Assembly (NCBI GenBank): GCA_029561255.1
Contig: JAKQJH010000257.1
Coordinates: 1-38,564 of the forward strand
Reading direction: 5' to 3'
Source of the DNA: Bacteroidota bacterium
GTDB lineage: Bacteria; Bacteroidota; Bacteroidia; Chitinophagales; Chitinophagaceae
Length of the DNA: 38,564 nt
The notes under the pieces were generated by a model, which was given only the letters and a program-made list of their open reading frames with translations, had not been told where the DNA came from and searched no databases. Made by a program: the position numbers and the translations under genes. Shown in pieces: positions 9,917 to 37,228 of the stretch. The stretch's first letter is position 1, and every line of letters begins with the position of its first letter.

Positions 9917-9951
9917 ACTACTCACCACTCACTATTCACCACTCACCACTC
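9917..9951. repeat. heptamer array, ACTCACC type
   Basis: Five consecutive 7-bp units: ACTACTC, ACCACTC, ACTATTC, ACCACTC, ACCACTC. The array overlaps the 3' end of the minus-strand cyclase gene: it encodes the last residues (VVSGE) and supplies its TAG stop at 9934-9932. No inverted partner array was seen nearby. Confidence 0.75.
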
Positions 9952-11926
9952 CCCGTTGTTCGCCCATCGTAATTACCTGCGCTATCTCCTCCTTTGGGTG
10001 ACCAACCCTTCCCTCCAGGAAGTACATGTCGATATCGCCTATATTCTTTGCATTAATCTTACCCCGGTAGGAACAGGCAAAACGGTCTTTTACCAATTCA
10101 TAAACGGAGGAGGAAACATTGATCTTACCCGGTTCTCCATTGCTTTCCATCCGGCTGGCAATGTTTACGGTACTGCCCCAGATATCATAGGCATACTTAC
10201 GCTTTCCTACCACCCCGGCCACAATGGGGCCAACGTGAATACCTATGCGCATTTCCCAGGGTACCAGTCCGGCATCCATCCGCTTCTGATTATGCCGCAA
10301 TGCATAGTTGCGCATTTCAATGCCGGCCCGGATCATATTCTCCACATGGTTTTCGTCGGGCGTTGGAATACCTCCCGCACACATATACGCATCCCCGATG
10401 GTTTTGATCTTTTCTAGATTGTATTTCTCCATGATCTCGTCAAAGACCACAAAGCAGGTACTGAGTTCTTCCACCAGGTCCTGGGGCTGCATCTTATCCG
10501 CAATAGCCGTAAATCCTTTAAAATCGGTAAACATAACGGAGACCGATTCGAAATACCTTGGTTGTGATTTACCTGTAGTCTGTAACTCTTTGGCCACTTC
10601 CTCCGGCAGAATATTGAGCAATAATCCCTCGATCTCTCCTTTCTGTTTGTCAACTATTCTATGTGTTTTAACCTTGATCCGGTAGTTGCGGTAGATCAGC
10701 AAGGCAATCAGCAGTACCAGGACCAGGCCGACGGTTGCCGCTGTCTTCATCAATTGCTGCCGTTTTAGTTTCTGATCACTCAGGGCTTTATCCTTTGTTA
10801 ACAGATTAATTTCGCCCTGTTTTTTCTGCAGGTCAAAATCAAATTGCAGGGTTCCTAGTTTTTTATCAGTTTCACTGTTATAAATCTTTGCTGTTATGGC
10901 AGAATAAAAGGACTGGTATTCAAAAGCCTTCTTATAATTGGCCGTCTGAGAAAAGGCTTTTGCCATTTCCTGGTAGAGATCTTTCAGTTCATGATTGGCC
11001 TCTATTTCCAGGGCCGTTGTTTCTGCCTTTGCAAACTGATTAAGGGCGGTGACGAAATCGCCTTTCTTCACATATACATTTCCCAGTCCCATTCTTGACT
11101 GCACCTGTCCCATTTTACTATTGAACTTCTCTGCCAGGCTCACGGCGGCATTATGATTCCGGAGAGCCAGATCAAACTGTCCTGTTTTGTTATACACTTT
11201 TCCCAATGCATTGTAGGCATTCAGACTACCTTCCGTATCCCCATACGCTTTCAGCGCCTTGTTAAAATAGAGCAGGGCTTTTGTATGATCATTCCTTTCA
11301 TAATAAATAGATCCGATATTCACCGATATGGCGCCCAGCTCGGTTTGCTTATCCAGTTCCTCGCATAATTTCAGCGCCTTTTCATAATACTCCAGCGCTT
11401 TATCATAGGTAGCCGGCTTGATAAAATAAACACCGCCTACATTATTCAACGCGATCAGGATCCTGAATTTATCCCCGGCCAGTTCAGAATACCGCAACGA
11501 CTGCAGGTAATTCTCCAGGGCCTTGGTGTCATCACCCCGGTCATAATATACCACCCCGATATTGCTGTACAGATTGGCGATCCCGCTGTTATCCTTCATA
11601 TCGAGAAAGACCTGGAGCGATTGTTTATAAAAATCAAGCGCCTCGATGTGCATACCCTGGAAATAATAAACGATCCCCGTATTCTTCAAAGCCAGGGCTT
11701 CTCCTTTCTTAAACCCGATCGATTGGGCCATCGTTTTTGCCTGGTTTGAAAGGGCAAAGGCTTTTGCCGTATCACTGCTGAAAAACTCTTTAGTTTGTTG
11801 CAGCAGGGCATTCACTTTTACGGTATCACCTGCCGGCAATGATCCGGCATCACCGGAAGCCTGGGCAAAACCTGGTAAAGTGGATACAAACAAACCGATG
11901 GTTATAAGGATACTTTTGAATTTCAT
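9932..11926 (-). CDS. TPR-containing class III adenylate cyclase
   Basis: 664 residues. A signal peptide (about 1-22) is followed by tandem TPR repeats at roughly 30-350, one transmembrane helix at about 395-413, and a C-terminal class III cyclase domain from about 455. Metal-binding Asp residues are D468 (MFTDFKGF) and D512 (IGDAYMC). K508 and D581 match the adenine-selecting Lys/Asp pair of adenylate rather than guanylate cyclases. N588 and R592 match the transition-state residues. The layout puts the TPRs in the periplasm and the cyclase in the cytoplasm, so it may convert an envelope signal into cAMP. The last five residues and stop come from a heptamer array. It is about 50 bp downstream of the giant S8 gene on the same strand. 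Confidence 0.92.
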   Translation of the reverse strand: MKFKSILITIGLFVSTLPGFAQASGDAGSLPAGDTVKVNALLQQTKEFFSSDTAKAFALSNQAKTMAQSIGFKKGEALALKNTGIVYYFQGMHIEALDFYKQSLQVFLDMKDNSGIANLYSNIGVVYYDRGDDTKALENYLQSLRYSELAGDKFRILIALNNVGGVYFIKPATYDKALEYYEKALKLCEELDKQTELGAISVNIGSIYYERNDHTKALLYFNKALKAYGDTEGSLNAYNALGKVYNKTGQFDLALRNHNAAVSLAEKFNSKMGQVQSRMGLGNVYVKKGDFVTALNQFAKAETTALEIEANHELKDLYQEMAKAFSQTANYKKAFEYQSFYSAITAKIYNSETDKKLGTLQFDFDLQKKQGEINLLTKDKALSDQKLKRQQLMKTAATVGLVLVLLIALLIYRNYRIKVKTHRIVDKQKGEIEGLLLNILPEEVAKELQTTGKSQPRYFESVSVMFTDFKGFTAIADKMQPQDLVEELSTCFVVFDEIMEKYNLEKIKTIGDAYMCAGGIPTPDENHVENMIRAGIEMRNYALRHNQKRMDAGLVPWEMRIGIHVGPIVAGVVGKRKYAYDIWGSTVNIASRMESNGEPGKINVSSSVYELVKDRFACSYRGKINAKNIGDIDMYFLEGRVGHPKEEIAQVITMGEQRGVVSGE

Positions 11927-11977
11927 CTTTCTACTGATTAATCGTTTCAGGGTTAGTAATGGATGATACTTATTTAA

Positions 11978-14900
11978 TTATTCTTTTACAAACCGGATCG
12001 CTTTCACTAGACCGGTTTCTTTATAACGCAACAGGTAGAGTCCATTGGCCAGACCAGACACATCCAGTTCCACACTGTTGCCGGATATCCGTCTGCTGAT
12101 TTTAACGGTACAGGCCCTTCCGCTCACATCATAAATAAACAGGCTCTTGTCGTTCAGCAATCCTTGTTGTAAAGTAATGATCACCCTGTCAGATGCCGGA
12201 TTCGGATAGAGCACGGCATTACCGGTTTTGGTTTGCTCAGCGGCCGGATCCGGCTGCTTCGTTACTTCCTCATTATTATCCGGTGTGTCTTCTGTTTCCA
12301 TTTCATCCGGTATTTCCTCCCATTCCGAGCGACCTGTCGTGCTGCATCGTTTTGAGGTGGCCCTTGCCGTTACAGATTCTGTTACCAGGGTATTACACTC
12401 ATAGGATCGTAGTTCCCATTTCAAAGCGGTTCCGTCGAATGGAACTTCAAACCGGGTAGTGCCGTTTCCAGGCAGGAAAATCACCTCTTGCTGAGAAGCA
12501 TCAAATGAACCGGTGGAGGAGAGTTTATTATTCACCCCTACCGGAATGTATACCGGTGTACTGTTGCTGTTCTTGGAATAGAAACGGGCCACATACCGGC
12601 GGTTCTGTGGTACATACGACGCGCCTCTGTCCTCCACGCACTGCAGGTAGGTATCCACATCATCCGCATTTCCACCTTTGGGATTAATGTAGAGCTGACT
12701 GTTAATATAGGTCACGAAATAATTACTACTGTTGGCAAACGGATTGAGCAGCGGTATAATGGTATATACTCCAGCCGCCCCGGTACAGGAAGGACTTAAT
12801 GAATGTGACACAGTTGGATTATCGCCGTTTTTCAGCCCGGTGATCGTAGACGTAAATACCGGTAAAGCCTGTCCTTTATAGATCCATTTCAGGTCGGCCT
12901 TCACTTCCAGGCTTATTTTTTTGATCTCAAACGTTACACCAGGCACCAGACTTAACAGGTAATTTGTTCCGGCTGATAGTGTATTCAGCGTATAAGCATA
13001 TGTACCGGCATTGTTACCTGGCACCCTGCCGAGTGTCCCGGTGAATGATCCTGCATTCAGTCCGGCGTTAATGGTATAGGTAAACACCGGATCAGCGGCT
13101 CCATATAATTTAAATTGTCCCGCGTTTGCTGTTATCGTTACGGGTTTGGCCATGATGGCAAACCGGGCACTGCCACCCAGCGTGAGCATATAATTGTTAC
13201 CGGCACTGAGGGAACCTAATGTATAAGCATACAGGCCCACATCCGAACCGGATTCCCTGTCCAATGAACCATTGAATTCATCATTCGGCTGAAGGGTTTC
13301 GCTGGCCGTATAGGCAAATACGGGATCCGCATCACCATACAGTTTGCTTTGATCAGCAACAGGTGTTATTACAATCGCACGACTGGTTATAGCAAATGTA
13401 TTTTCTCCTCCGACACTGAGGGTATAATTAGGTCCGGCGCTGAGCGTACCGATTGTATACGGATAGTTTCCGGCATTATTACCACTTTCACGACTAATGG
13501 CACCCGTAAAATCAGAGACACTTAATCCGGCATTATTGGTATAAGTATAAACCGGATCCGCACTGCCATATACTTTTTGCTGTCCGGCTACAGGCGTTAC
13601 AACAACAGGCGCTGGTAAAATGGTCACCACTCCTGCGAGGTGCGTGATTTCAAAATTAGGATTGACAAATGATCCCGGAATCACATACTGCTGTCCGGCA
13701 TCGAGTCCGGTTACCATATTCAGTGATTTCAGCGGATTGACACCCTGTCCTATTTCGGTTGTATCCAGCACCACGGCTGTTCTTTCTTCACTGTTTACAA
13801 TAGGTATTGCCTGTCCATTGACAATCGTCACCGCCTGGCCATTCACAATTGTTACCGCCTGGCCATTTACAATCGTCACCGCCTGGCCATTCACAATCGT
13901 TACCGCCTGACCATTCACAATCGTTATTGCCTGACCATTCACATAAGATTCCTGGGCCACCAATCCTTTTGATCGTACACCGGATATGGCATTCAGCATT
14001 GTGGTTTGTGCGGCATTATTGTTGAAGTCCAGAATAGATTCCTGGGTGATATCCACCACATTGGTGCTACTGGTAATATAAGAACCATTGACTAATTCTT
14101 TATTTTGTATCGTACGGGTCGATTGCAGGGATTGAGGTCCGGCCTGGAAACTAAGCTGGTTGATTTCCGGAGCGGTTAAGACTTCGGGAATCGTATCGGT
14201 GACTACGCCATTTACAATGGTAACGGCCTGGCCATTCACAATCGGAATGGCTTGTCCGTTTACAATGGTGACCGCCTGGCCATTCACAATGGTAACTGCC
14301 TGACCATTTACAATCGGAATGGCTTGTCCGTTTACAATGGTGACCGCCTGGCCATTTACGAGACCTAATACATCTTTGCCCGAACCATCTTTGGCCAGTT
14401 GTGACTGGTGCGTGGTTTGAATGGCATCTAATACCGTACCCACACTGGGGATATTGGCCCCGTCAGCCGCATTGGTCAGTGCATAATTAAATTGAATATC
14501 CGGTATTTTCTGCAGGTAAGTGACCGTGGTATCACGGGCCGTTACGGTTACCGGCAGTTTTCCGATGGTCAGTGTACCATTGGTGAATGTATAATTATAC
14601 AATTCATTCATTCCGATATCCACCGGATCGGTTTCACTGAATACCCGGTTGGGGGTAATCGAATAGGTTCCTACATTACTTAAAATATCATTGTTGGCAG
14701 AGGAAGTCAGGGTCAGCTGATCCAGCCCCAATTGCTGCGTGGTTAATCCGGGTGCTGGCAAATCAGCCAGGGCCACGCCATCCACCGTCACAGTGTAGGT
14801 AAATTCAGGGAAGGACTGGGCATACTTCTTGGTTTTGTTTTCCGCTTTCACCACCACATTCTTTTTAACGACATCAAAGAATTTGAGTGTATCACTCGTG

Positions 14901-18640: not shown

Positions 18641-19210
18641 ATGTATTACTTCTGGAAATTCTATTTCAAACTCATCGGCTGGAAGTTACGGGAACCCTTT
18701 CCCGGCCCCTTACCTAAGGCAGTATTGGCGGTCGGACCGCACACCAGCTGGCAGGATTTTATTATCGGGGTAGCAACAAGGAGTCTGATGCGGATCGGAC
18801 CCATTTACTTCCTCGGAAAAAAAGAATTGTTTGACGGTCCTTTTGGCTGGCTGTTCCGGGCCTTAGATGGCAAACCGGTGGACCGCTTCAGTAATAAAGG
18901 GATGGTGGAACAGGTGGCTGAATTATTCAGTAAGGACCCTAATTTCAAGATTGCCCTGGCCCCGGAAGGTACCCGTAAACGGGTGGATAAACTCCGCACC
19001 GGCTTTTATCATATTGCCGAAAAGGCGGGCGTACCGATCGTACTGGTAGGATTTGATTTTAAAACCAAACAGGTTTGTTTTTCGAACCCATTGTATCCCT
19101 CCAATGAAGAACAGGATATGAAAACAATACACAATTTCTACGGGAGCATGACAGGAAAATTTCCAGAGAAAGATTTACAGCACTTAGGGAAGCTAGAAGC
19201 TAGCATCTAG
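18641..19210 (+). CDS. 1-acyl-sn-glycerol-3-phosphate acyltransferase-like protein
   Basis: 189 residues from the ATG at 18641; an in-frame TTG at 18563 gives an unlikely 26-residue extension. The PlsC-type motif HTSWQD (H34-x4-D39) is the catalytic pair. The second block, PEGTRKR (108-114), matches the phosphate-binding EGTR motif, and GVPIVLVGFD matches the later conserved segment. It probably transfers acyl groups in membrane-lipid synthesis at the inner membrane. It is a short family member without an obvious long transmembrane region. Its final residues KLEASI and the TAG stop are encoded by a heptamer array, and it converges with the TatD gene across that element. Confidence 0.85.
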   Translation: MYYFWKFYFKLIGWKLREPFPGPLPKAVLAVGPHTSWQDFIIGVATRSLMRIGPIYFLGKKELFDGPFGWLFRALDGKPVDRFSNKGMVEQVAELFSKDPNFKIALAPEGTRKRVDKLRTGFYHIAEKAGVPIVLVGFDFKTKQVCFSNPLYPSNEEQDMKTIHNFYGSMTGKFPEKDLQHLGKLEASI

Positions 19211-19306
19211 AAGGAAACAGCCCCTCCTGTGAATTTGTGTCTAAATGAACAAAAAGTTCCTCGTTTTACGGCATTCCCCTTCTCGCTTCTAGCTTTTTGC
19301 TGCTAG
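19190..19306. repeat. heptamer-flanked element, core type A, copy 1
   Basis: Left array: AAGCTAG, AAGCTAG, CATCTAG (19190-19210). Right array, inverted: CTTCTCG, CTTCTAG, CTTTTTG, CTGCTAG (19279-19306). The core between them includes GCCCCTCCTG and AAAAAGTTCCTCGTTTTAC. Positions 19197-19270 align without gaps to 30204-30277, about 60 of 74 bases identical. The left array gives the stop of the acyltransferase (19208-19210) and the right array gives the stop of tatD (19291-19289), so the element sits exactly between two convergent genes and ends both. Confidence 0.75.
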
Positions 19307-20071
19307 CTTACTAAACAATTCCCGCACATTCCGCTCCGTTATCTCTGCAACTTCTTCAATAGAAATGTTTTTCAAACCGGCCAGTTTCTCCACCACATAT
19401 TTCAGGTAGGATGGTTCGTTTTGTTTCCCCCGGAAAGGCACCGGGGCGAGATAAGGTGCATCGGTTTCCAGTACTACTTTATCGAGACTGATCGTATCAA
19501 ACACTTTGTCAAGCCCGCCGTTTTTAAAGGTTACGACCCCGCCAATTCCGAGATAAAAACCAAGATCCATAATCTGTTGGGCCTGGACCGTGTTTCCGGA
19601 AAAGCAATGAAACACCCCTTTTAGCTTTCCGTTCTGGTTGCGTCTGACCACTTCAATACACTCATCGGTGGAGTTCCGGGAGTGGATAGCGATGGGCAAA
19701 TCAAATTCCAGTGCCCAATGGATCTGTTCTTCAAATGCGAGGTATTGCTGTTCGGTAAAAGTCTTGTCCCAGTAAAAATCCAGCCCGATCTCCCCCACGG
19801 CCACAAATCCACCTTTTTCGAGGTAGGCGCGGGCAATTTTCAATTCCTCCCGGAAATGCTCCTTGACATAGCAAGGATGGAGGCCCATCATGGGTCTGCA
19901 CTGGCCGGGATATTGACGGGCCAGTTCCAGCAGGGCAGCATGGGATTCTGAGTCGATGGCCGGTAGCAATATATTACTAACTCCCTCTTTTTCAGCTCGT
20001 TCCAGCATTTCCTTCCGGGTTTCGGCAAATTCTGGCAGGTAAATATGGGCGTGGGTGTCCGTAAGTTTCAT
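19289..20071 (-). CDS. tatD: TatD-family metal-dependent deoxyribonuclease
   Basis: 260 residues, the normal length for TatD/YcfH-type hydrolases. All metal ligands are visible: H7 and H9 in DTHAHI, E94 in VGEIGLD, H130 in IAIHSR, H155 in FHCFSG and D204 in ETDAPYL. It is cytoplasmic, with expected 3'-5' DNase or phosphodiesterase activity. YcfH- and YjjV-type paralogues share these motifs, so the symbol is a family label. The C-terminal SKLAAKS and stop are encoded by the inverted heptamer array at 19279-19306. No operon partner is evident; the gene upstream is divergent. Confidence 0.9.
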   Translation of the reverse strand: MKLTDTHAHIYLPEFAETRKEMLERAEKEGVSNILLPAIDSESHAALLELARQYPGQCRPMMGLHPCYVKEHFREELKIARAYLEKGGFVAVGEIGLDFYWDKTFTEQQYLAFEEQIHWALEFDLPIAIHSRNSTDECIEVVRRNQNGKLKGVFHCFSGNTVQAQQIMDLGFYLGIGGVVTFKNGGLDKVFDTISLDKVVLETDAPYLAPVPFRGKQNEPSYLKYVVEKLAGLKNISIEEVAEITERNVRELFSKLAAKS

Positions 20072-21871: not shown

Positions 21872-21877
21872 CTGCCT

Positions 21878-23401
21878 ATGAATAAAAGAGTCAGGGTTCG
21901 TTTTGCTCCCAGTCCTACCGGCGGCCTGCACCTCGGCGGCGTCAGAACTGTATTGTTTAATTATTTATTCGCCCGAAAACATGGTGGCGATTTCCTGGTG
22001 CGGATCGAAGATACCGACCAGAACCGTTATGTGCCCGGCGCGGAAGAATATATTTTTGACACCCTGAAATGGTGTGGTCTGGAGCCTGATGAAAGTGTGC
22101 AGCATGGGGGTAATTATGGCCCCTATCGTCAGAGTGAACGAAAAGCCAGTTACCGGATATTCGCTGAACAATTGGTAAATGCCGGTCATGCGTATTATGC
22201 ATTTGATACCCCGGAAGAACTGGAAACCATGCGGCAGGAATATAAAACGCCGGAAAATCCTTCCCCGCAATATGACCACAGCATCCGGATGAAAATGCGG
22301 AATTCCCTCAGCTTAACCGCTGAGGAAACTGCGCAATTACTGGCCAACGGCACCCGCCATGTGATCCGTATTAAAATGCCGGAAAATGAAACCGTCAGTT
22401 TCACCGATATGATCCGTGGCGAAGTGAGTTTTGAGTCTGGTACCGTAGATGATAAAGTATTATTGAAAGCCGATGGCATGCCTACCTATCACCTTGCGGT
22501 GGTGGTGGATGATCAGGCCATGGAAATATCTCACGCTTTCCGCGGGGAAGAATGGCTGCCCTCGGCCCCGGTGCATATACTATTATGGAAATATCTTTTC
22601 GGTCTGGACCAGATGCCCCAATGGGCGCACTTTCCCCTGATCCTCGGACCGAGTGGTAAGCTTAGCAAAAGAGATGGGGCTAAATATGGTTTCCCCGTTT
22701 TTGCCATGAACTGGACTGATCCAAAAACAGGTGAGCTTACCGAGGGCTTTAAAGAAAAAGGATTCTTACCCGAAGCCTTTATCAACCTGCTGGCCCTGCT
22801 TGGCTGGAATGAAGGCACCGAACAGGAGATCTATACCAAAGAAGAGCTGATCCAAAAGTTCTCCATGGAACGGGTACACAGTGCCGGGGCGAAATTTGAT
22901 TATGAGAAAGCGAAGTGGTTTAATCATGAATGGCTGAAGCGGTTGGAGGTTGGAAGTTTGAAGTTGGAGGTTAAGACCCTGCTGACTGAAAAAGGCATTA
23001 CTGTAACCGACGATTCGGTATTGGAAAAAGTAATTGGTTTGGTGAAAGACCGTTGTCAGTTGCTCACCGATTTTGTACAACAGTCCGACTATTTCTTTAA
23101 AGCACCGGAAACTATCGATACAGCAGCGGTGAAACCGAAGTGGAATGAAGCCAAACAATTATTCTTTGCGGAACTGATCCGGAATTATGAGCTGGCTACT
23201 GACTGGGAGGCCCATACGCTGGAAAATAATTTAAAGGAGATCGCTGCAGTAAATGACCTCAAGCCAGGTGAACTGATGCTTCCCCTCCGGATTATGCTGG
23301 TGGGTGGTAAATTCGGTCCGGGGGTTTTTGATATTGCCGCTATACTGGGAAAAGCAGAAACCATCAAACGGATGGAGACGGCTCTGGCCTTGTTGCAATA
23401 G
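21878..23401 (+). CDS. gltX: glutamyl-tRNA synthetase
   Basis: 507 residues from the ATG at 21878 (an in-frame TTG lies three codons upstream). It charges tRNA-Glu, and possibly tRNA-Gln if the cell uses the transamidation route. The class I signature is complete: FAPSPTGGLHLGG is the HIGH region and GKLSKRDGA is the KMSKS loop. The EDTDQNR and RGEEWLPS segments also match. Length is normal for bacterial GluRS. The odd feature is an in-frame 7-bp repeat array at 22942-22972, which encodes RLEVGSLKLEVK after the KWFNHEWL helix. It converges with the aldo/keto reductase, whose stop is 16 bp away. Confidence 0.95.
   Translation: MNKRVRVRFAPSPTGGLHLGGVRTVLFNYLFARKHGGDFLVRIEDTDQNRYVPGAEEYIFDTLKWCGLEPDESVQHGGNYGPYRQSERKASYRIFAEQLVNAGHAYYAFDTPEELETMRQEYKTPENPSPQYDHSIRMKMRNSLSLTAEETAQLLANGTRHVIRIKMPENETVSFTDMIRGEVSFESGTVDDKVLLKADGMPTYHLAVVVDDQAMEISHAFRGEEWLPSAPVHILLWKYLFGLDQMPQWAHFPLILGPSGKLSKRDGAKYGFPVFAMNWTDPKTGELTEGFKEKGFLPEAFINLLALLGWNEGTEQEIYTKEELIQKFSMERVHSAGAKFDYEKAKWFNHEWLKRLEVGSLKLEVKTLLTEKGITVTDDSVLEKVIGLVKDRCQLLTDFVQQSDYFFKAPETIDTAAVKPKWNEAKQLFFAELIRNYELATDWEAHTLENNLKEIAAVNDLKPGELMLPLRIMLVGGKFGPGVFDIAAILGKAETIKRMETALALLQ
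22942..22972 (+). repeat. heptamer array inside gltX, GTTGGAG type
   Basis: Units GTTGGAG, GTTGGAA, GTTTGAA, GTTGGAG, then GTT. The same heptamer forms the array at 28567-28600 in non-coding DNA. Here it is in frame and adds a hydrophobic and charged heptad-like segment to the protein without a frameshift. Confidence 0.75.
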
Positions 23402-26518: not shown

Positions 26519-26523
26519 TGGCA

Positions 26524-26595
26524 AGCTACGAGCTACGAGTTACGAGCCAAAAGTCCGAAGTATCAGGCTCGCCATTCGTAACTCGCCACTCGCAA
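26524..26595. repeat. heptamer-flanked element, AGCTACG type, short core
   Basis: Left array AGCTACG, AGCTACG, AGTTACG (26524-26544). Right array CTCGCCA, TTCGTAA, CTCGCCA, CTCGCAA (26568-26595) reads as an inverted, diverged version of the left. The core is only about 23 bp. The element starts 5 bases after the ATP-grasp stop and lies inside the operon, so it would be transcribed and could fold. Confidence 0.7.
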
Positions 26596-26647
26596 CCCTG
26601 TACTCTTGAATTAAAACAGATTTTACAAATTTTTAGAGAGATTACTT

Positions 26648-27583: not shown

Positions 27584-27604
27584 TTTACCGCAACTTTGTA
27601 ACCC

Positions 27605-28561: not shown

Positions 28562-28566
28562 CAGGG

Positions 28567-28600
28567 GTTGGAGGTTGGAGGTTGGATAGTTGGAGGTTGG
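28567..28600. repeat. heptamer array, GTTGGAG type
   Basis: GTTGGAG, GTTGGAG, GTTGGAT, one extra base, GTTGGAG, then GTTGG. It begins 6 bases after the transglutaminase stop. The same unit occurs inside gltX at 22942-22972. No inverted partner array is visible downstream. Confidence 0.7.
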
Positions 28601-28699
28601 CGGGAAGCCGCTTAACGAAATGAAATATAATTTAATGGAATAAGTCTCCTGCTTTAAATCTGTACTTTAAACGATAATAGTATAACTGTGGTTGAAAAA

Positions 28700-29257: not shown

Positions 29258-29413
29258 AATACAACATTTTTCCTCATTTTTTGGAGGAACAATGCTATTC
29301 TCCGTTCTATGAAAAGTATAATAAAAGAATAAACATTTCAAATAATGATGATTTCCTAAATTTATGGAAAATAAAACGACTAATTATTAACCAGTCATCT
29401 TTAAAACAGTCCC

Positions 29414-30190
29414 ATGTACCAGACACTCCTCCTCCTCCCCGAAAATGGCATCCTCACCGTGGTGATCAACCGTGCGGATAAACTCAATGCGCTGAACAAG
29501 GATGTGTTCACCGAACTGAACCTGGTACTGGATGAAGTGGAGAAATCATCTGCCATTAAATCAGTGATCATTACCGGTGCCGGCTCCAAGGCTTTTGTGG
29601 CCGGGGCGGATATCACCGAATTCAAAGGCATGAGTAAAGAAGAGGCAATGGCCGTTGCTAAAAGAGGGCAGGATGTCTTTGCCCGGATAGAAAACTCGTC
29701 CAAACCCATTGTGGCTGCTGTAAACGGATTTGCGCTGGGCGGTGGTTGCGAACTGGCAATGAGTTGCCATTTCCGCGTAGCGGCTGAAAATGCAAAATTC
29801 GGTCAGCCCGAAGTGAATCTTGGTTTAATCCCTGGTTATGGTGGCACACAACGACTGGTGCAACTGATCGGGAAAGGCAAGGCCATGGAACTACTGATGA
29901 GTGCACACATGATTGATGCCAACGAAGCCAAAGCGCTTGGGCTGGTGAATTATGTAACTACACCTGAAACCCTGCTTGATCATACCCGCAAAATTTTAGA
30001 AACCATCAACAGCAAGGCTCCGTTGGCAGTAGCCGGTTGTATAAAAGCCGCCAATGCCGTTTATGATGAAAGTAAAGATGGGTATGCCCTCGAGATTGAG
30101 GAATTCGGGAATGCGTTTGATACAGAAGATATGAAGGAAGGGGTGAGTGCGTTTTTGGAAAAACGGAAAACGACCTTCACAGGAAAATGA
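29414..30190 (+). CDS. enoyl-CoA hydratase/isomerase (crotonase family)
   Basis: 258 residues, the typical length for short-chain enoyl-CoA hydratase. The oxyanion-hole segments FVAGADITEF and NGFALGGGCELA are present, and both catalytic glutamates are kept: E113 (GGGCELAMS) and E133 (FGQPEVNLGLIPG). This pair indicates true hydratase activity in fatty-acid or amino-acid breakdown, hydrating trans-2-enoyl-CoA. It is cytoplasmic and monocistronic by layout. A degenerate heptamer array begins 6 bases after the stop, at 30197. Confidence 0.92.
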   Translation: MYQTLLLLPENGILTVVINRADKLNALNKDVFTELNLVLDEVEKSSAIKSVIITGAGSKAFVAGADITEFKGMSKEEAMAVAKRGQDVFARIENSSKPIVAAVNGFALGGGCELAMSCHFRVAAENAKFGQPEVNLGLIPGYGGTQRLVQLIGKGKAMELLMSAHMIDANEAKALGLVNYVTTPETLLDHTRKILETINSKAPLAVAGCIKAANAVYDESKDGYALEIEEFGNAFDTEDMKEGVSAFLEKRKTTFTGK

Positions 30191-30196
30191 TAAAAC

Positions 30197-30277
30197 AAGC
30201 GAGAAGCTATAGACTAGAAGGGGAAAGCCCCTCCTTAGAATCTTTATCTAAATAAACAAAAAGTTCCTCGTTTTACC
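30197..30277. repeat. heptamer element, core type A, copy 2 (right arm lost)
   Basis: A degenerate left array (AAGCGAG, AAGCTAT, AGACTAG) leads into the same core as 19211-19270, including AAAAAGTTCCTCGTTTTAC. Positions 30204-30277 align gap-free with 19197-19270. Unlike copy 1 it has no inverted heptamer array to the right. Confidence 0.7.
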
Positions 30278-30360
30278 TGATCCTTACGAACGTCCTACTT
30301 TTTACCAATACAAGATTCCTCCTTCGTCGGAATTTCTATTGGAAGATCGTGATTGCTTTT

Positions 30361-30481
30361 ATCCCTCGCTTCGCTTCGGGATGACAAAACAGCCCGTATC
30401 CTGTACAGACGAAACAGTCCGTTCTCATAAAACTAAATTTCTAAGAAAGCTTGTCACCCCGAAGCGAAGCGAGGGGTGGAT
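30361..30481. repeat. long inverted repeat with CGAAGCGAAG arms
   Basis: The left arm (30361-30385) contains CCTCGCTTCGCTTCGGGATGA. The right arm (30453-30481) contains its near-complement CACCCCGAAGCGAAGCGAGG. The spacer is about 67 bp. The transcript could form a strong hairpin. Confidence 0.7.
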
Positions 30482-30570
30482 ACAGTTGTAGTGGAATTGT
30501 ATTTGAATTCCGACGAAGGAGGAATCTTGTATTTGTCACGAGAAGGAATCTTCTTTTTTTCTCTTAATAA

Positions 30571-30666
30571 CAATATTATTCAACCCCATTCGGGGTTGCA
30601 GGGCATTGGGGGCACACTACCCCGGGTTTCACCCGGGGCTATTAAAAGTTTAAGCCCTTCGGGCTA
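30571..30666. repeat. triple-hairpin repeat unit, copy A
   Basis: Three palindromes occur in a row: CAACCCC/CGGGGTTG, CCCCGGG/CCCGGGG around TTTCA, and AAGCCC/GGGCT around TTC. Copy B at 31002-31095 has the same three hairpins in the same order and orientation with nearly the same spacing. Confidence 0.8.
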
Positions 30667-30828
30667 TGCTGTACCTTCGAGAAATATCAATTGCCGCGAG
30701 GACATTTCATTTCATAGTGGATGTTAAACAGTGGGCAACGAAAAATCACATTGGCACCACTACCATTTCGAGCGCAGCGAGAAATCTTGTATTCCCTTTT
30801 TCTCTCCTACACAGCCGTCATTCCGAAC

Positions 30829-30951
30829 GAAGTGAGGGACCTTGTATTTGAGCTTTGCTCCCTTACCAACAAACGCAGTGAGGGACCTTGTATTTGAGCT
30901 TTGCTCCCTTACCAACAAACGAAGTGAGGGACCTTGTATTTGAGCTTTGCG
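30829..30951. repeat. 46-bp tandem repeat, about 2.7 copies
   Basis: Units begin at 30829, 30875 and 30921 (GAAGTGAGGGACC or GCAGTGAGGGACC, then TTGTATTTGAGCTTTGC). The first two units are almost identical and the third is cut short. There are no unique spacers, so it is not a CRISPR array. Confidence 0.85.
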
Positions 30952-31001
30952 CCATTTATTCTAGCGTAGCGAGGAACCTTGTATTTACCTTTCATCAACA
31001 T

Positions 31002-31095
31002 CAATATTCAACCCCATTCGGGGTTGCGAGACATTGGGGGGCGCCCTACCCCGGGTTTCACCCGGGGCTATTAAAAGTTTAAGCCCTTCGGGCTT
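31002..31095. repeat. triple-hairpin repeat unit, copy B
   Basis: Second copy of the unit at 30571-30666. Differences cluster in the linker between the first and second hairpins; the hairpins themselves are conserved. It ends 11 bases before the fucosidase stop region and might act as a terminator for that minus-strand gene. Confidence 0.8.
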
Positions 31096-31105
31096 GGCAT
31101 TACGA

Positions 31106-33229
31106 TCAATGAAAGAGCATCCCCCCAGACATCTCTTTCTTCTCCCCACCTTCCTCCCGGATATGCACTTTCAACCCATTACCCCCACCACTATCAAAAT
31201 AGATGATCTTTATTTTATGATAGCCCATAGCAAGCAGGGCCTTGCCGCTCTTTTCTTCCATGCCATGGTTGCCGTCATTGTTCACGATCAGTTCATCGTC
31301 GATGAATAACTGGCTGCCATCATCACTGGAGGTAAAGAATTCCATCATTTGCTGCTTATCCAGCCGGATATAGCCGGTGAACAGCAAGCCGTATTTTTCT
31401 TTACGCAGTTTGAGCGATTCATTGATCACAGAGGTAGTGCCTTTCTTTAAAGCGGCACCCGTCTCCACCGAACGGATATCGAGATTCTCGCCCTCGTAGT
31501 AACTGTACTGTAATCCGGAAGAAGTAGTTCCCACCACCTGCGCCTTCATCAGGTTGTACACCCGGAAATCACCCTTGGTCTCTCCGCTGGGCAGCAAACC
31601 CGCTTTAACGGCCATAGCTTTTACCGGACCAGTATTCCCTAAAATGAAGGGGGCTTTATACACACCCGACTTTGTGGTAACCGCGCTGCCATCAGTCGTA
31701 TAATAAACTTTTGCCCCGGGTAGGGCTTGTATGGTTACTTCCGGACGCATGGGGTCTTTATAAACTGCATTAATTATTGGCTTAGCGGTAAAAGCGCCGT
31801 ACTGTTTGATCCTAACCACCCAGGCCCAGGGAGCTTTCATGCTGGATGGATTGTACTCGGGCAATTGCACTTCCACATTGGCACCCGTTTGTCTCCATAC
31901 CAGGGACTGACCGGTGGATAACAGATCCAGTTTTGTACCCACAGGTAATTGAATATCCTTTAAAACCATTTTCCGGTTTTGCGGATAACGGGGTAGAATC
32001 GCATAGAGATTATTAGCCGTTGGATTATAGGTATAGAATACTTCCTTTACTGCATAACCCGGATCAGGATCCACCGTAATCTTGAGCAGCATATCACCAT
32101 GACGATCGGTGTAATCTCTCCGGCCGGCACTCCACTGACTGGTCGTTTTCCAGCGACGGGTATTATAAATCGCTTCGCCGTTGAGCTTCAACCACTCTCC
32201 CATCTGCAATAAACGGTCCTGCATGATGGGTGGGATCTTGCCGTGTTCATCGGGACCGATATCGAGTAAGAAATTTCCACCGCGGCTGACTTTATCGATC
32301 AACTGCAAAATGAGTGATTGCGTACTGTTATAGTCCCAGGCATCTTCTTCGCGGTTATAGCCATAACTGAAACCCATGCCCCGGCTTTCTTCCCAGGCAT
32401 GATCTTCAAAATCGAGATCGGGCTGGTACTCGGGGGTAAAGATGCCCCCGTGTTTGAAACGGATCCCGGCACCCCAGCGATCATTCACCACCACTTTCTC
32501 TTTCACCACGCTTTCGTTGTACAACCAGGCGAGGAACTGCTGACTCTTCCATAATTCAGCCGGCGCATCCCAATCTCCATCCGTCCAGAATACATCGGGC
32601 TGATACCGGTTGATTAAATCTTTCATCTGTGGCCAGGTATGCTGCTCCGCAAATTTGGCAGGATCCGCTTTCCATAACGGGTTGAACCATTCGTAGAGGG
32701 AATAATACATACCAGCCCGTACGGTTGTTTTGCGCACCGCGGTAAACAGATCACCAATCAGATCACGTTTGGGTCCTACGTCTGCGGAAGTCCAGGGAAA
32801 ACTCCATGCCTTCCGGGTCTCCTCACTGGGCCATAGGGAATAACCATCATGGTGTTTGGACGTTAGTACAATATATTTTGCCCCGCTCTTCTCAAAGAGC
32901 TTAGCCCATTCATCGGGATTAAAGAGTTCGGCTTTGAAATCCCTTGCCAGGTCATAATAATTCCGGTCGCCGAACTTCGCCTGGTGGTATTTCAGTACAG
33001 CACTGTCTTTCCGCCCCTGCATATACTGCTGATACCATTCCGAATAATTGCCCTTGGCGGTATAACCCGGCACGGCATACATACCCCAGTGAATGAAGAT
33101 GCCAAACTTATCGTTGCTGAACCAGTTGGGCACGGGACGTTTGTCGAGACTTTCCCAGTCGGGGGTGTAGGGTTGTGCCTGTGCAATCGTGTTAATCAAA
33201 AGGCAAATGGCAAGCAGGTTCTTTTTCAT
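31106..33229 (-). CDS. GH29 alpha-L-fucosidase with C-terminal PA14-like domain
   Basis: 707 residues with a signal peptide (MKKNLLAICLLINTIAQAQ). The GH29 catalytic domain spans about 25-380. It shows WFSNDKFGIFIHWG, TSKHHDGYSLWP (H126-H127-D128) and VFWTDGDWD, where D217 is the expected nucleophile. A chitobiase-like C-terminal segment (VYYTTDGSAVTTKSGVYKAP) and a PA14-like module (GLLFTGYIRLDKQQMMEFF, SSDDGSQLFIDDELIVNNDG) follow and may bind glycan. It releases terminal alpha-L-fucose. Its start is 5 bases after the stop of the second GH29 gene, so the two are co-transcribed. Confidence 0.92.
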   Translation of the reverse strand: MKKNLLAICLLINTIAQAQPYTPDWESLDKRPVPNWFSNDKFGIFIHWGMYAVPGYTAKGNYSEWYQQYMQGRKDSAVLKYHQAKFGDRNYYDLARDFKAELFNPDEWAKLFEKSGAKYIVLTSKHHDGYSLWPSEETRKAWSFPWTSADVGPKRDLIGDLFTAVRKTTVRAGMYYSLYEWFNPLWKADPAKFAEQHTWPQMKDLINRYQPDVFWTDGDWDAPAELWKSQQFLAWLYNESVVKEKVVVNDRWGAGIRFKHGGIFTPEYQPDLDFEDHAWEESRGMGFSYGYNREEDAWDYNSTQSLILQLIDKVSRGGNFLLDIGPDEHGKIPPIMQDRLLQMGEWLKLNGEAIYNTRRWKTTSQWSAGRRDYTDRHGDMLLKITVDPDPGYAVKEVFYTYNPTANNLYAILPRYPQNRKMVLKDIQLPVGTKLDLLSTGQSLVWRQTGANVEVQLPEYNPSSMKAPWAWVVRIKQYGAFTAKPIINAVYKDPMRPEVTIQALPGAKVYYTTDGSAVTTKSGVYKAPFILGNTGPVKAMAVKAGLLPSGETKGDFRVYNLMKAQVVGTTSSGLQYSYYEGENLDIRSVETGAALKKGTTSVINESLKLRKEKYGLLFTGYIRLDKQQMMEFFTSSDDGSQLFIDDELIVNNDGNHGMEEKSGKALLAMGYHKIKIIYFDSGGGNGLKVHIREEGGEKKEMSGGMLFH

Positions 33230-33234
33230 TTTAA

Positions 33235-34659
33235 TTATTTTTCAAGCAGTTGTTCGTTAATTAAATATGCATTTACAGTCTGCAAATTATCCCTGTTCTG
33301 CATATCCGTTAAGTATATCTCAATGCTTTTGGCAGTAGTTACAGGAAAAGAAAGAATTCTTTTATGCCCGATTGTAGTTCCTGTAATTTCTGATCGAACA
33401 TCTCCATTTATAATCACAATTCTAAAACCTGTAATCGTCTGACCGTTTGCTATCCTTTCATTCAGAACTATACAATTAATTTTTTCTGGTTTTGAAAACG
33501 AAATCATTTGCTCATTCTTATGTACCGGAACTTTATTAAATTCACTTTTCTTGTCTTTAGGAATAAAAACACTGCTTCCATCAGCCCTTCCATTACCCCG
33601 GTTGTCGATTTTAAAATACAATTTTCGCCCGCTTAATAAATCACTTTTAAAAGCCCGGTCACGCAGATTTCTGAATCCAGCTAACGCCAACGAATCATTC
33701 TGATGAATCTTCCCTCTCCGGTCCGGTGGAATATTCAATAACAGATTCGCTCCTCTGCCCACACTCTTTAACCAGAGATCAAATAAATTTTCCGGCGTTC
33801 TTACTTTATTGTCTTCCGCTTCGTGATAGAACCAGCCCGGACGGATGCTCACATCACATTCAGCCGGTATCCAGGCCTTGCCGAATTTGTTTCCAGTATT
33901 TAATGTGTCCTGTGTGGGGCCGCCTTTGCCCGGGGTGAATCCAACGGTGTCCAGTGTATTCCAGTTGGTCTTGCCGGCAATTCCACTTTCATTTCCCACC
34001 CAACGCACATGTGGTCCGATATCACTAAAGACAACCGTATTCGGTGAAAGTTCTTTTACCGTCTTTTTATAACGGGCCCAGTCATACACCTGCATTTTTC
34101 CATTGGGACCTTCTCCATTGGCACCATCCCACCAGAGCTCCCAGATGGGACCATAGTTGGTGAAGAGTTCTTTCATCATATTCACAAATACATCATTGTA
34201 TTTCTCAGTACCATAATCAGGATGATTGCGGTCCCAGGGAGAAATATAAACACCAAACTTCAATCCATATTCCTTGCAGGCTGCCGAAAGTTCTTTCAGT
34301 ACATCTCCCTTCCCGTTTTTCCATTTGCTCTCCCGCACCGTATGTTTGGAATATTTACTGGGCCATAAACAAAAACCATCATGGTGTTTGGCGGTAATGA
34401 TCACGCCCTTGGCTCCGGCGGCTTTCGCCGTACGTACCCATTGGCGGCAATCCAGTTCCGTTGGATTAAACATATCCGCCGGCTCCGTCCCATGTCCCCA
34501 CTCCAGATCGGTAAATGTATTGGGCCCGAAATGGAAGAAGAAATAGTATTCCATATCGTGCCAGGCGAGCTGGGAGGCGCTGGGTTTGGGCTGAGCCAGA
34601 ATACAATTAGCTAAGAGGATAAAAGAGAGAAAGAGGGAAAGAGGTTTAATTATACGCAT
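33235..34659 (-). CDS. GH29 alpha-L-fucosidase, second type
   Basis: 474 residues. The signal peptide (MRIIKPLSLFLSFILLANC, then ILAQ) is followed by a GH29 domain with FFHFGPNTFTD, TAKHHDGFCLWPS and ELWWDGANGEG; D178 is the expected nucleophile. The motif set (WWDGANGEG rather than WTDGDW) matches the GH29-B group, often alpha-1,3/1,4-specific. That subgroup call is inference. The C-terminal domain is an F5/8-like beta region. Its signal peptide and upstream DNA are near-copies of those of the GH95 gene at 34791-37049. It precedes the 707-residue GH29 by 5 bases. Confidence 0.9.
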   Translation of the reverse strand: MRIIKPLSLFLSFILLANCILAQPKPSASQLAWHDMEYYFFFHFGPNTFTDLEWGHGTEPADMFNPTELDCRQWVRTAKAAGAKGVIITAKHHDGFCLWPSKYSKHTVRESKWKNGKGDVLKELSAACKEYGLKFGVYISPWDRNHPDYGTEKYNDVFVNMMKELFTNYGPIWELWWDGANGEGPNGKMQVYDWARYKKTVKELSPNTVVFSDIGPHVRWVGNESGIAGKTNWNTLDTVGFTPGKGGPTQDTLNTGNKFGKAWIPAECDVSIRPGWFYHEAEDNKVRTPENLFDLWLKSVGRGANLLLNIPPDRRGKIHQNDSLALAGFRNLRDRAFKSDLLSGRKLYFKIDNRGNGRADGSSVFIPKDKKSEFNKVPVHKNEQMISFSKPEKINCIVLNERIANGQTITGFRIVIINGDVRSEITGTTIGHKRILSFPVTTAKSIEIYLTDMQNRDNLQTVNAYLINEQLLEK

Positions 34660-34703
34660 ATGGTTGAATTGGTTTATTCTGATAAAATGTGAAACTTTTC
34701 AGG

Positions 34704-34805
34704 ATGAGTAATGAGTAGCCCGGGAAAAGTCATTACGAATTAGTAACTGTATCAAAGCTGTAAAGTATCTTCCCATTTACTCATTACTCATTATTCATTA
34801 CTCAT
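34704..34805. repeat. heptamer-flanked element, core type B, copy 1
   Basis: Left array ATGAGTA, ATGAGTA (34704-34717). Right array TACTCAT, TACTCAT, TATTCAT, TACTCAT (34778-34805) is its inversion. The core contains a 28-bp stretch (34747-34774) identical to 37155-37182. The right array encodes the end of the GH95 protein (MSNE) and its stop at 34793-34791. Confidence 0.78.
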
Positions 34806-37049
34806 TCTCACGGATTGCCCCTTACTCATCGGCACCATCATCACCCCATCCCTCACCTTCACCTTACTCCTGTCAATACCGGTAATCGTCCAGTTCTTAA
34901 ATGGCAAACGCAGCAAACAGGTGCCTCCCGCCTCACTTTTCACCACCACTTCCTTCACCACCCCATTTTCTTTTACAGCGGATACCAGGAAGGCCCTTTC
35001 GGCACGAAGCGTACGGAAAGATACATCCTTCCATCTTTCCGGTATAGCAGGAAATACTTCTATAACTCCTTCCCTTGTTTGTATTAATAACTCCTGTACA
35101 CCCTGGGCAAAGGCAAAATTACCTTCCAACGTAAAAGGCCGGTAGGTAAAGTTTGAATACTGACCGCCTTTCTGATCCCCGTTGAGGTGAAAGCTATTGG
35201 AAGAAACAAAATTGGAGGCGAATTTATTCAGCATACTCACGGCACTATCGGCTTCGCGGCAACGGGCATACATACAGGCCATCCAGCTGAACGAGTAACC
35301 ACACCATTCGCGGGTACCGAGTTTTTCGATATGACGAAGGGAAAGATCGATCAGTTTTTTGTCTGCTGCTTTATCGACATTCAGTAAACAAAGCGGGTAG
35401 ATCGCCATATAAGGAGAGAGATGACGATGGGATTGGTCGAGGTTTTGATTGGGTGCTACGGTCAGACCGGTTTCATTGGCATCGAAAGCACCCAGTTTTT
35501 CAATAGCATCCTCCTCAGCAAGAATCACTGGCGGAAAGAACTGATTAAAATGCTGAATGAGCTGTTGCTTTGCATACCTTACAAACTTGACCAGGGCCTT
35601 ATCATAATTTGTGGTATACCTGAACCAGGCTTTCACCGAATTATCGTGATACTCCGGACTTGAACTCAGGGCTATAAAGCTGGGATCCAGTTCTTCTTTC
35701 TCCAGGTACCGGTAAAGAAAAAGTTCCACATCAGTTAACCATGCAAGTGCCTGTTCATAATCTGTTCTTTTTTTACTAAACATCGCCTGCCAGTAAAAAT
35801 GTTGCGCCAGCCAGGCCGATGTGGTCGGACTCATTGAATACTGGATCCATCCCCCCATTTCCTTACCACTGATGGTGGTCACACCGGGCACATTCAAACC
35901 GGGTAATTCAAAATATTGTCTGGTCCACCGTTCATTTTCTTTCCGCACTTTCAATAACCAGTTGGTATACCCGGCTGTAAGATCCAGATGATTAGAAGCA
36001 TAACCCGGCCAGTAGCTGAGTTGTGTATTAAGATCATGATGAAAGTCGCCTTTCCAGGGTGGCAGGTTGCCATTGTCGGCGGTCCAGATAGCCTGTAAGG
36101 AGATGGGTGGTGTATTACCCCTGGCCACACAGGCGAACTTATACATATCGAGGTAGTACTGACGCTCGATCTTTTCATCCGGTATACGTAAGGATGACCG
36201 GCTCCAGTAATCCTTCCACCAGGCGATATGCGTAGGCCAGAACGTGGGTTCGGCTTTGGTAAAGTCAGGTTTAATTAACACCGCTGGTTTATCATTACTG
36301 ATGGTCCATTGGCCAATGACCCGGTACTTTGCCGGACGAAACCATTGCACCAGCACTTCATAATAGTGTCCCTGGTAGGTGGGTTGGTGATAACGGATAC
36401 TGCTATGTGTTTTTGTAACTGTTCCTTTTGCATAACCCAGTCGTTCCAGTCCCTGACCTTCCACACTGCTCCCGGTGCCTCCTGCCTTTCCGGAGTTATA
36501 TGCAGGGATCATTAATTCAGGAATCATATCGATCGTACAATTTTCAAAACCAAAATAACCGGTCTCCCGCGTGGCATGGATATAATTATTAAACACAACC
36601 CCATTCTCAAACAACATCGTACTTAAACCATTATTGATATGCAAACGGCCGGAACTCAGTTTGCCCAGCTTTGCCAGGTCAAATTCAATCGCCGCTCCGG
36701 GTATCTTGGTAGGTGCCGGGTATTTTTCATAAGGCTCATCCCCAATCTTTTGTACAGAGTCGTACTGGTTCCTGATCACTTTCTCCACCACCCAGCTGAA
36801 CTTCAGTTTGTCGATCTCCGGCATCGGACGATCATCCCAGAGATCCACCCTGTCCAGCGACAAGCGCAGTTTATTTTCTTTCTGCCAGATCAACGCACCG
36901 AGCCAGCCATTGCCCAATGGTATTCCTTCATCCCAGCGTTGCGGAAGCTGGTTGAACTGAAGATCATGCGCAGGTTGGGGTTGAGCAGCAATACAATTGG
37001 CTAAGAGGACAAAAGAGAAAAGGAGGGGAAGGGGTTTGAGGATGGGCAT
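34791..37049 (-). CDS. GH95-family alpha-L-fucosidase-like glycoside hydrolase
   Basis: 752 residues with signal peptide MPILKPLPLLFSFVLLANC then IAAQ. The GH95 architecture is recognisable: N-terminal beta domain with IPLGNGWLGALIWQ, then an (alpha/alpha)6 region with LQAIWTADNGNLPPWKGDF, HHDLNTQLSYWPG and LDQSHRHLSPYMAIYP, and a C-terminal beta domain. GH95 enzymes usually cleave alpha-1,2-linked fucose, though some act on L-galactose. One of the two catalytic Asn positions appears to be Asp here (D339, with N341 kept), so specificity may differ. Its last residues MSNE and stop come from a heptamer array. It shares a 5' module with the GH29 gene at 33235. Confidence 0.88.
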   Translation of the reverse strand: MPILKPLPLLFSFVLLANCIAAQPQPAHDLQFNQLPQRWDEGIPLGNGWLGALIWQKENKLRLSLDRVDLWDDRPMPEIDKLKFSWVVEKVIRNQYDSVQKIGDEPYEKYPAPTKIPGAAIEFDLAKLGKLSSGRLHINNGLSTMLFENGVVFNNYIHATRETGYFGFENCTIDMIPELMIPAYNSGKAGGTGSSVEGQGLERLGYAKGTVTKTHSSIRYHQPTYQGHYYEVLVQWFRPAKYRVIGQWTISNDKPAVLIKPDFTKAEPTFWPTHIAWWKDYWSRSSLRIPDEKIERQYYLDMYKFACVARGNTPPISLQAIWTADNGNLPPWKGDFHHDLNTQLSYWPGYASNHLDLTAGYTNWLLKVRKENERWTRQYFELPGLNVPGVTTISGKEMGGWIQYSMSPTTSAWLAQHFYWQAMFSKKRTDYEQALAWLTDVELFLYRYLEKEELDPSFIALSSSPEYHDNSVKAWFRYTTNYDKALVKFVRYAKQQLIQHFNQFFPPVILAEEDAIEKLGAFDANETGLTVAPNQNLDQSHRHLSPYMAIYPLCLLNVDKAADKKLIDLSLRHIEKLGTREWCGYSFSWMACMYARCREADSAVSMLNKFASNFVSSNSFHLNGDQKGGQYSNFTYRPFTLEGNFAFAQGVQELLIQTREGVIEVFPAIPERWKDVSFRTLRAERAFLVSAVKENGVVKEVVVKSEAGGTCLLRLPFKNWTITGIDRSKVKVRDGVMMVPMSKGQSVRMSNE

Positions 37050-37073
37050 ATGGGAGAATTAGTTTGTTTTTTT

Positions 37074-37228
37074 TAATGAGTAATGAATAATGAGTAATGA
37101 GCCTGCCTGCCGACAAAGGCAGGTAGCTCCGGAAAAGTCTTTACAAATAAGTACCTGTATCAAAGCTGTAAAGTATCTTCCCTTTTACTCATTACTGATT
37201 ACTCATTACTGATTACTCATTACTCATC
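37074..37228. repeat. heptamer-flanked element, core type B, copy 2
   Basis: Left array TAATGAG, TAATGAA, TAATGAG, TAATGAG (37074-37101). Right array of six units alternating ACTCATT and ACTGATT, ending ACTCATC (37187-37228). Core as at 34718-34777, with 28 bp identical (37155-37182). A 22-bp palindrome (CCTGCC at 37102-37107 with GGCAGG at 37118-37123) is inserted here and absent from copy 1. Confidence 0.78.

Follow-up and report, generated by a model that had tools for sequence, protein, structure and literature searches.

What determines where short 7-bp tandem arrays lie between the genes of a bacterial genome, and why does their period stay the same when their sequence does not? A 38,564-nucleotide stretch from a member of the Chitinophagaceae (Bacteroidota), referred to here as the window, raises this question. 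The window is contig 303 of a 3.63 Mb draft assembly (host genome, G000; 413 contigs, 76% complete). A first-pass annotation had described a family of heptamer arrays in the window, some of them repeated in inverted form across a short core. We found that the heptamer arrays are real, are present beyond the window, and are more orderly than that annotation supposed. Anchoring at stop codons and strand polarity, both absent from it, are their strongest regularity.

We tested for a chance origin of the 7-bp period with a lag-match score calculated per period over 41 contig stretches (280 kb) that had not been selected for repeats. The score returned 39 runs at period 7, compared with 3 at period 6 and 5 at period 8, and none at periods 4, 5, or 9-13. 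The 40 runs found at period 14 largely restate the period-7 arrays. First-order simulations, one for each of the 41 stretches, produced no runs at the tested periods. In the window itself, the score gave 7 runs at period 7 and no more than one at any of periods 4-6 and 8-13. Because the 39 period-7 runs come from stretches outside any repeat selection, the excess extends beyond the window. The first-pass annotation had named a period 7 no more frequent than 6 or 8 as its refutation; the counts go the other way. A looser cut-off applied to the 41 stretches and the window (~318 kb) gave 58 arrays. A census of repeat units, made over 60 stretches of the host genome plus the window, covered 145 arrays; its counts lean toward AAGC units because 19 of the 60 stretches were picked for matching the element at position 19190 of the window.

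The position of the arrays relative to genes is far from uniform. With gene ends taken from longest open reading frame (ORF) calls, 24 of 44 intergenic arrays were no more than 6 bp from a stop codon. If the arrays were scattered uniformly over the same gaps, 5.2 would be expected at this distance, and the maximum in 2000 simulations was 12. The G-rich strand, which is also the purine-rich one, was the sense strand in all 25 stop-anchored arrays from the random stretches and the window, and in all 30 from contigs chosen by hits. Arrays within 60 bp of start codons were antisense in 7 cases and sense in 2. Strict inverted pairs in the host genome obeyed the same polarity: the G strand was on the left in 14/14, so that the G strands converge on the core.

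We then asked how far pairing accounts for this order. An array of opposite polarity followed within 200 bp for 11 of the 25 stop-anchored arrays. As a control, 13 of 235 gene ends without a stop array have a C-polarity array 20-230 bp downstream. Of the other 14 stop arrays, two were followed by G or neutral arrays alone and 12 by none. The stop array and its downstream partner had complementary units in 6/11 cases (4/16 in hit contigs); since complementarity extends to just 6 of the 11 pairs, pairing is not the rule. Polarity is a more constant feature than pairing, and the inverted design looks like one outcome of the polarity rule rather than its basis. Convergent gaps were moderately enriched in arrays (14/42 arrays versus 41/217 regions, P = 0.019), and divergent gaps (4/42 arrays) were not significantly depleted (P = 0.13).

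Stop anchoring could be mimicked by a bias in which stop-rich arrays themselves create the stops. Such a bias would put read-through C-sense arrays inside ORFs near their 3' ends. The list of arrays inside ORFs (10 rows) contained one possible case, a 17-bp CCGGTGG run at locus L013, in a short ORF that ends 140 bp away. The bias is also opposed by the conserved stops seen in comparisons with three related genomes (G004, G009, and G010).

Tandem Repeats Finder reported period-7 arrays in the window at 9915-9951, 19189-19213 with 19279-19309, 22941-22972, 26524-26547 with 26568-26593, 28566-28600, 34777-34810, 37074-37101, and 37185-37227. The arrays, their cores, and the genes they adjoin are as follows.

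9915..9951, minus strand: G-sense heptamer array GTGGTGA/GTAGTGA, overlapping the stop of ORF 9932-11926 (minus strand; guanylate cyclase/TPR protein).
19189..19213, plus strand: left arm, GAAGCTA array, spanning the end of ORF 18563-19210 (acyltransferase).
19214..19278, plus strand: core with the conserved motif AACAGCCCCTCCT (19216-19228) and CTCGTTTTACGGCAT.
19279..19309, minus strand: right arm, inverted CTTCTCG/CTTCTAG array, overlapping the stop of the convergent TatD ORF 19289-20071.
22941..22972, plus strand: GGTTGGA array inside the glutamyl-tRNA synthetase ORF 21869-23401.
26524..26547, plus strand: left arm, AGCTACG array, beginning 5 bp past the stop of the CP_ATPgrasp ORF 25073-26518.
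26548..26567, plus strand: short core of the 26524 element.
26568..26596, minus strand: right arm, inverted CTCGCCA/CTCGCAA array.
28566..28600, plus strand: single G-sense GGTTGGA array, beginning 4 bp past the stop of the transglutaminase ORF 27605-28561.
30197..30276, plus strand: degenerate copy of the 19190 element (GAAGCTA-like array plus core), just 3' of ORF 29414-30190.
34704..34718, plus strand: left (distal) arm, about two GTAATGA units.
34719..34776, plus strand: core GGGAAAAGTC...CTGTAAAGTATCTTCCC, near-identical in the sister species.
34777..34810, minus strand: right arm, TTACTCA array, G-sense on the minus strand, over the stop of ORF 34791-37049 (GH95).
37074..37101, plus strand: left arm, TAATGAG array.
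37102..37123, no strand assigned: palindrome CCTGCCTGCCGACAAAGGCAGG, resembling a repetitive extragenic palindrome (REP), between left arm and core; similar palindromes lie within other arrays.
37124..37184, plus strand: core of the same family as 34719-34776.
37185..37227, minus strand: right arm, TTACTCA/TTACTGA array, 35 bp past the stop of ORF 37263-38558 (GH35).

Arrays were confirmed at the loci listed in the first-pass annotation, with two reservations: the 30197 locus is degenerate only (83% to the 19190 element over 80 bp, its array absent from the repeat-finder output), and the left arm at 34704 amounts to about two units. The four inverted loci it described at 19190, 26524, 34704, and 37074 were borne out, with cores of about 65, 20, 58, and 83 bp, respectively, calculated from the coordinates. 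The window matched no Rfam family at the gathering score.

The repeat units are diverse and widely shared. The 145 arrays reduce to 45 dominant units; 22 of these are found at more than one array and 23 at a single array. AAGCGAG (15 arrays), AATGAGT (14), AAGTACG (13), AAGCTAG (10), and ACCACTC (8) are the commonest. A constant 7-bp period with changing unit sequence, as first described for the window, is supported. The accompanying description of the units as locus-specific does not hold, because 22 of the 45 recur and one core carries different arms. An inverted partner was present within 220 bp for 32/145 arrays and lacking for 113/145.

Many arrays continue directly into a conserved motif, AACAGCCCCT(C/G)CT, which occurs 25 times in the genome and 0 times as a reversed control. 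We tabulated core copies with a slightly relaxed version of this motif, keeping only copies whose left unit was in our unit list. The resulting 48 copies comprise five left-unit families. Their right module could be typed in 24 (CGTACTT in 13, TTTTTAC in 5, CTTCTCG-type in 4, GACTNC in 1, and REP-like in 1), and the remaining 24 had none. Left and right modules around the shared core show no fixed pairing. At this AACAGCC core, 21 of the 23 typed heptamer right arms fail to complement the left unit. A second core family, GGGAAAAGTC...GTAAAGTATCTTCCC, carries the TAATGAG arms at 34704 and 37074, and REP-like palindromes of the form CCTGCC...GGCAGG lie inside some arrays. Because units and cores recur at many loci, and arms and cores combine as modules, copying between loci is needed. 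Two host loci (L012 8800-8968 and L013 5280-5460) hold chains of different heptamer arrays joined by a shared AACAGCCC-type linker; the arrays of the L012 chain are 48 bp apart.

We compared array loci of the host genome with those of the sister species G004, the closest relative when glutamyl-tRNA synthetase is compared (94% over residues 2-377), using a looser array cut-off than in the unit census and stop-distance counts. The 39 coding fragments gave 25 places for 23 of the host's own loci, and 16 of the 39 had no place in G004. We restricted the comparison to 18 loci with fragment identity below 98%, excluding 8 loci at or above this value because such contigs may be common to both bins. 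Fragments on G004 contigs 484, 468, 491, and 297 are 98-100% identical to the host genome, compared with 83-95% for the others, which may reflect strains common to the two drafts or cross-binning.

At 16 of the 18 diverged loci, G004 has an array at the same gene end. Nine of these kept arrays share heptamers with the host array (one, L029 4983, judged by eye because the automatic comparison gave no G004 entry), and seven share no exact heptamer. L052 9898 has a different unit between matching flanks and beside a matching core, with a net change of 4 bp. The GTGGTGA array at 9915 in the window corresponds to a GTAATGA (TAATGAG) array with an inverted partner at the 3' end of the same gene in G004. 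Locus L066 18704 matches two places in G004, L149 (92%, without an array) and L162 (83%, with an array); we took L162 as the counterpart because the flank beyond the array also matches. Length steps of -7 (L016 12218), +7 (L038 156), and +28 bp (L066 18704) are consistent with slippage or unequal exchange. Since 7-bp steps occur at some loci and other changes elsewhere, some changes look like whole-unit slippage and others like replacement.

Two more distant relatives, G009 and G010, lack the 26524 element, and the flanking genes there are about 30 and 50 bp apart; divergence at these empty sites is too high to read a target-site duplication. By eye, no array was seen in either genome at the 3' end aligned with the 28566 array. 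The array within the glutamyl-tRNA synthetase gene (gltX) falls in a variable protein segment; the segment lengths of the aligned relatives are within one residue of each other. At the DNA level, its units are GGTTGGA in G000 and G004 and GTTTGAG-like in G009 and G001, and G010 has none; the remaining relatives were compared as protein only. Turnover of this array (window 22941-22972; L076, L078, and L082) is visible as amino-acid change at nearly constant protein length.

The arrays are distributed unevenly in other genomes. Stretches from G004, G009, G010, and G001 were partly picked by hits or synteny, and their counts are not density estimates. G009 (39 kb) and G010 (20 kb) showed no period-7 run; G001 had 4 in 60 kb, and unselected G004 contigs had 2 in 16 kb. 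G007 had 2 in 20 kb, plus 4 runs at period 9. No period-7 runs were found in 120 kb from four other families of the order. The pattern GAAGCKAGAAGCKAGAAG was present in 8 of 396 genomes of the order, with 30 occurrences in G000 and 18 in G349, a member of another family. Unselected stretches of G349 (43 kb) gave 14 runs at period 7, 2 at period 6, none at period 8, and 1 at period 9. Across ten G349 stretches, 16 of 19 stop-anchored arrays were G-sense. Strict inverted pairs from G349 and other genomes of the order had the G strand on the left in 2/5.

Searching with (TAATGAG)x3 extended this distribution to many filamentous cyanobacteria, Chryseobacterium, Marinifilum, Cloacimonadota, and Chloroflexota (at least 80 loci). 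Among the matches listed, several of which come from the same genomes, arrays within 10 bp of stops were sense in 51 cases and antisense in 18, and arrays within 10 bp of starts were antisense in 23 and sense in 6. Inverted pairs from other named genomes (n = 15) showed the G skew in 11 versus 1, with 3 zero-skew pairs set apart.

We favor, with moderate confidence, a model in which these elements are polarized heptameric simple-sequence arrays that are dispersed, mosaic, and fast-evolving, concentrated at gene 3' ends, and maintained by slippage or exchange, conversion, and a strand-sensitive filter. Slippage in 7-nucleotide steps or unequal exchange would create and resize the arrays. Ectopic recombination or gene conversion through common junctions and cores could swap and spread them, and arrays immediately behind a stop codon, where they are nearly harmless, would be retained. 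Their orientation may be filtered by a process that distinguishes strands and works on either the transcript or the non-template strand, favoring purine-rich RNA after a stop and C-rich, G-poor RNA before the next gene. Complementary arms would then form hairpins in some copies only, as a by-product. The first-pass annotation had suggested local generation by a 7-nucleotide templating or slippage process. The slippage-like 7-bp steps agree with part of this suggestion, and the shared units and cores speak against purely local generation. Loss of mismatch repair was rejected as a cause, as MutS_I was present in all eight genomes tested, array-rich and array-poor alike.

Several observations weigh against this model. 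It leaves the period of exactly 7 without an explanation, and its polarity filter is a putative agent only. The turnover data, which bear on slippage and exchange only indirectly, cover two diverged species and 18 compared loci. Two of the seven unit changes (L067 and L050) are close variants rather than new families, and length differences of 4 (L052), 8 (L067), and 23 bp (L068) are not multiples of 7 and would not result from slippage of whole units. Of the 45 dominant units, 23 were seen at a single array. Gene ends rest on longest-ORF calls rather than on a gene finder. Polarity also has exceptions outside the host genome: 3/19 stop-anchored arrays in G349, the 18 antisense stop arrays among the at least 80 loci listed from other named genomes, and 3/5 inverted pairs from G349 and the rest of the order, whose left G skew is slightly negative (-1 to -3, composite arrays).

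A broader reading is possible, though we consider it doubtful. The arrays may belong to a cross-phylum class set by period 7, stop anchoring, and polarity (a G- or purine-rich sense strand at stops and a C-rich one before starts), whatever the unit sequence and regardless of quadruplex formation or pairing. An undiscovered strand-aware process working in 7-nucleotide steps at the ends of transcription or translation would write and rewrite its members.

The heptamer arms could instead be terminal inverted repeats of non-autonomous elements, similar to miniature inverted-repeat transposable elements, that are mobilized in trans by a transposase or recombinase. Inverted arms do flank conserved cores, the copies are dispersed, and the 26524 site is occupied in the host and empty in G009 and G010. 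We nevertheless consider this explanation unlikely, because the 113/145 arrays with no inverted partner within 220 bp are one-sided, and because right arms at the AACAGCC core so rarely complement the left unit (21/23 do not). Among the 20 window ORFs scanned, out of 67 listed, we found no transposase and one tyrosine recombinase (7059-8462); genome-wide, the search for transposases covered PF01797 only. Mobilization by REP-associated tyrosine transposases (RAYTs) was rejected: no array lies within about 900 bp of six PF01797 (RAYT-type) hits, and the RAYT flanks examined (L069, L071, and L072) carry other repeats, namely GC-rich palindromes, and no heptamers. The host genome encodes RAYT-like Y1 transposases at L069, L070, and L071, two of them in tandem on contig 121. 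L069 and L071 are ringed by CAACCCC/GGGGTTG palindromes, which represent a separate REP-like system.

A function at the transcript level is about as improbable. Rho prefers spaced YC (pyrimidine-cytosine) dinucleotides, and C-rich, G-poor downstream arrays with YC at 7-nucleotide spacing might load it with one contact per subunit, making the pairs 3'-end barriers against read-through into a following or convergent gene. The enrichment of convergent gaps fits this proposal, as do the C-polarity arrays after 11 of the 25 stop arrays and the dispensability of complementarity. Twelve of the 25, however, have no further array within 200 bp, and some C-strand units (TTTTTAC and AACTTAT) contain no YC. 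In G009 and G010, only about 30-50 bp separate the genes that flank 26524, and a strong terminator there would cut a likely operon.

It is very unlikely that the arms exist to pair, as hairpins in the 3' untranslated region or bidirectional terminators that protect mRNA or end transcription. The G004 copy of the 34704 element does fold stably (-58 kcal/mol, z = -13, 0/200 shuffles as good), but the 19190 element does not stand out (z = -1.5, 16/200 shuffles as good), non-complementary array pairs are common, and a terminator scan of 19000-38564, limited to loops of 3-8, placed none of its 30 candidate sites on an element.

Templated synthesis, in which a reverse transcriptase or specialized polymerase would copy a 7-nucleotide template as telomerase does, suits a constant unit length with many unit sequences. 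It is highly improbable, as each unit family would need a separate template. The linked reverse transcriptase proposed as a check in the first-pass annotation was not found: RVT_1 was not detected in the array-rich genomes G000 (76% complete), G004 (83%), and G349 (98%), an absence that is not firm in G000 and G004 because these drafts are incomplete, and it is present once in each of the array-poor genomes G009 and G013. Equally improbable is the proposal made for GGGNATC heptamers, that sense-strand G-tracts act in the transcript as G-quadruplexes; the position and strand rule match those in Rehm et al. 2015 (PMC4692102), but four G3 tracts occur in 0/58 arrays and four G2 tracts in 16/58, and polarity at stops is complete all the same. 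Since none of the 58 arrays has four G3 tracts, the quadruplex explanation does not carry over.

The window contains other repeats and a possible mobile-element boundary. A 46-bp tandem repeat (2.7 copies, 97%) lies at 30826-30950, downstream of fucosidase genes, and sequence from within 30200-31110 has matches scattered over many sites in G004 and G010. Tandem repeats of 24 and 72 bp at 13809-14359 fall within a 2104-residue ORF, which perhaps encodes a repetitive surface protein. The tyrosine recombinase at 7059-8462 has Arm-DNA-bind_5 and SAM_5 domains and possibly marks the edge of an integrated element to the left of the arrays.

We compared the host arrays to known repeat systems. Short tandemly repeated repetitive (STRR) sequences of cyanobacteria are heptamer tandem repeats, and the heptanucleotide stem of the tRNA-Leu intron consists of two complementary arrays. 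To our knowledge, the STRR families have unit sequences that differ from those of the host and follow no stop-codon rule. REPs and bacterial interspersed mosaic elements, together with RAYTs, resemble the host arrays as mosaic repeats at gene 3' ends that occur in inverted pairs and modular combinations. Unlike them, the host arrays have no fixed palindrome, and the host's RAYT-type genes sit among other palindromes.

The closest match is the GGGNATC heptamers of Xanthomonas and Nostoc, which Rehm et al. 2015 (PMC4692102) tied to G-quadruplex formation and for which they found no function. These repeats also have a 7-bp unit and are dispersed and mostly intergenic. Most are either coding-strand repeats within 50 bp of a stop or non-coding-strand repeats that precede an ORF, a rule shared with the host arrays. 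Polarity and inverted pairs are described for the GGGAATC heptamers; as in the host, the pairs are convergent (70 cases in X. campestris, Xcc). In both systems, length and sequence vary between close relatives at conserved positions, and a general lack of linkage to mobile elements may be a further likeness. The GGGNATC repeats, however, form one quadruplex-capable consensus, whereas the host has many units. Anchoring within a few base pairs of the stop, cores that carry different arms, and unit changes at the same stop codon also set the host arrays apart.

A second relative is the TAACTGA direct repeat of Beggiatoaceae, Cyanobacteria, and five Bacteroidetes, as described in MacGregor 2015 (PMC4679880). 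It too forms 7-bp intergenic arrays that are patchy across phyla and have other heptamers mixed in, and its differences between two Cyanothece strains are mostly 7-nucleotide indels. The Maribeggiatoa arrays mostly end just upstream of start codons, whereas the host arrays begin at stops. The inverted design, of which the first-pass annotation knew no description in Bacteroidota, is not new: the two papers already describe inverted heptamer pairs in Xanthomonas and arrays in five Bacteroidetes, respectively. Among the entries listed by a search of titles and the beginnings of abstracts, there was nothing nearer on such a design in Bacteroidetes or at stop codons, subscription papers being mostly outside its scope.

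Thus, the class itself is known but little studied (Xanthomonas, Nostoc, and Beggiatoaceae), and the host set is a rich new variant. The position-and-polarity rule described for quadruplex-capable heptamers holds here for arrays that lack the canonical quadruplex motif, and, within one genus, one unit has given way to another at the same stop. Together, these two features suggest a more general cause, for example slippage or exchange combined with a strand-sensitive filter at gene ends. Comparison of G000 with G004 and G349 provides a system for testing the origin of the 7-nucleotide period.

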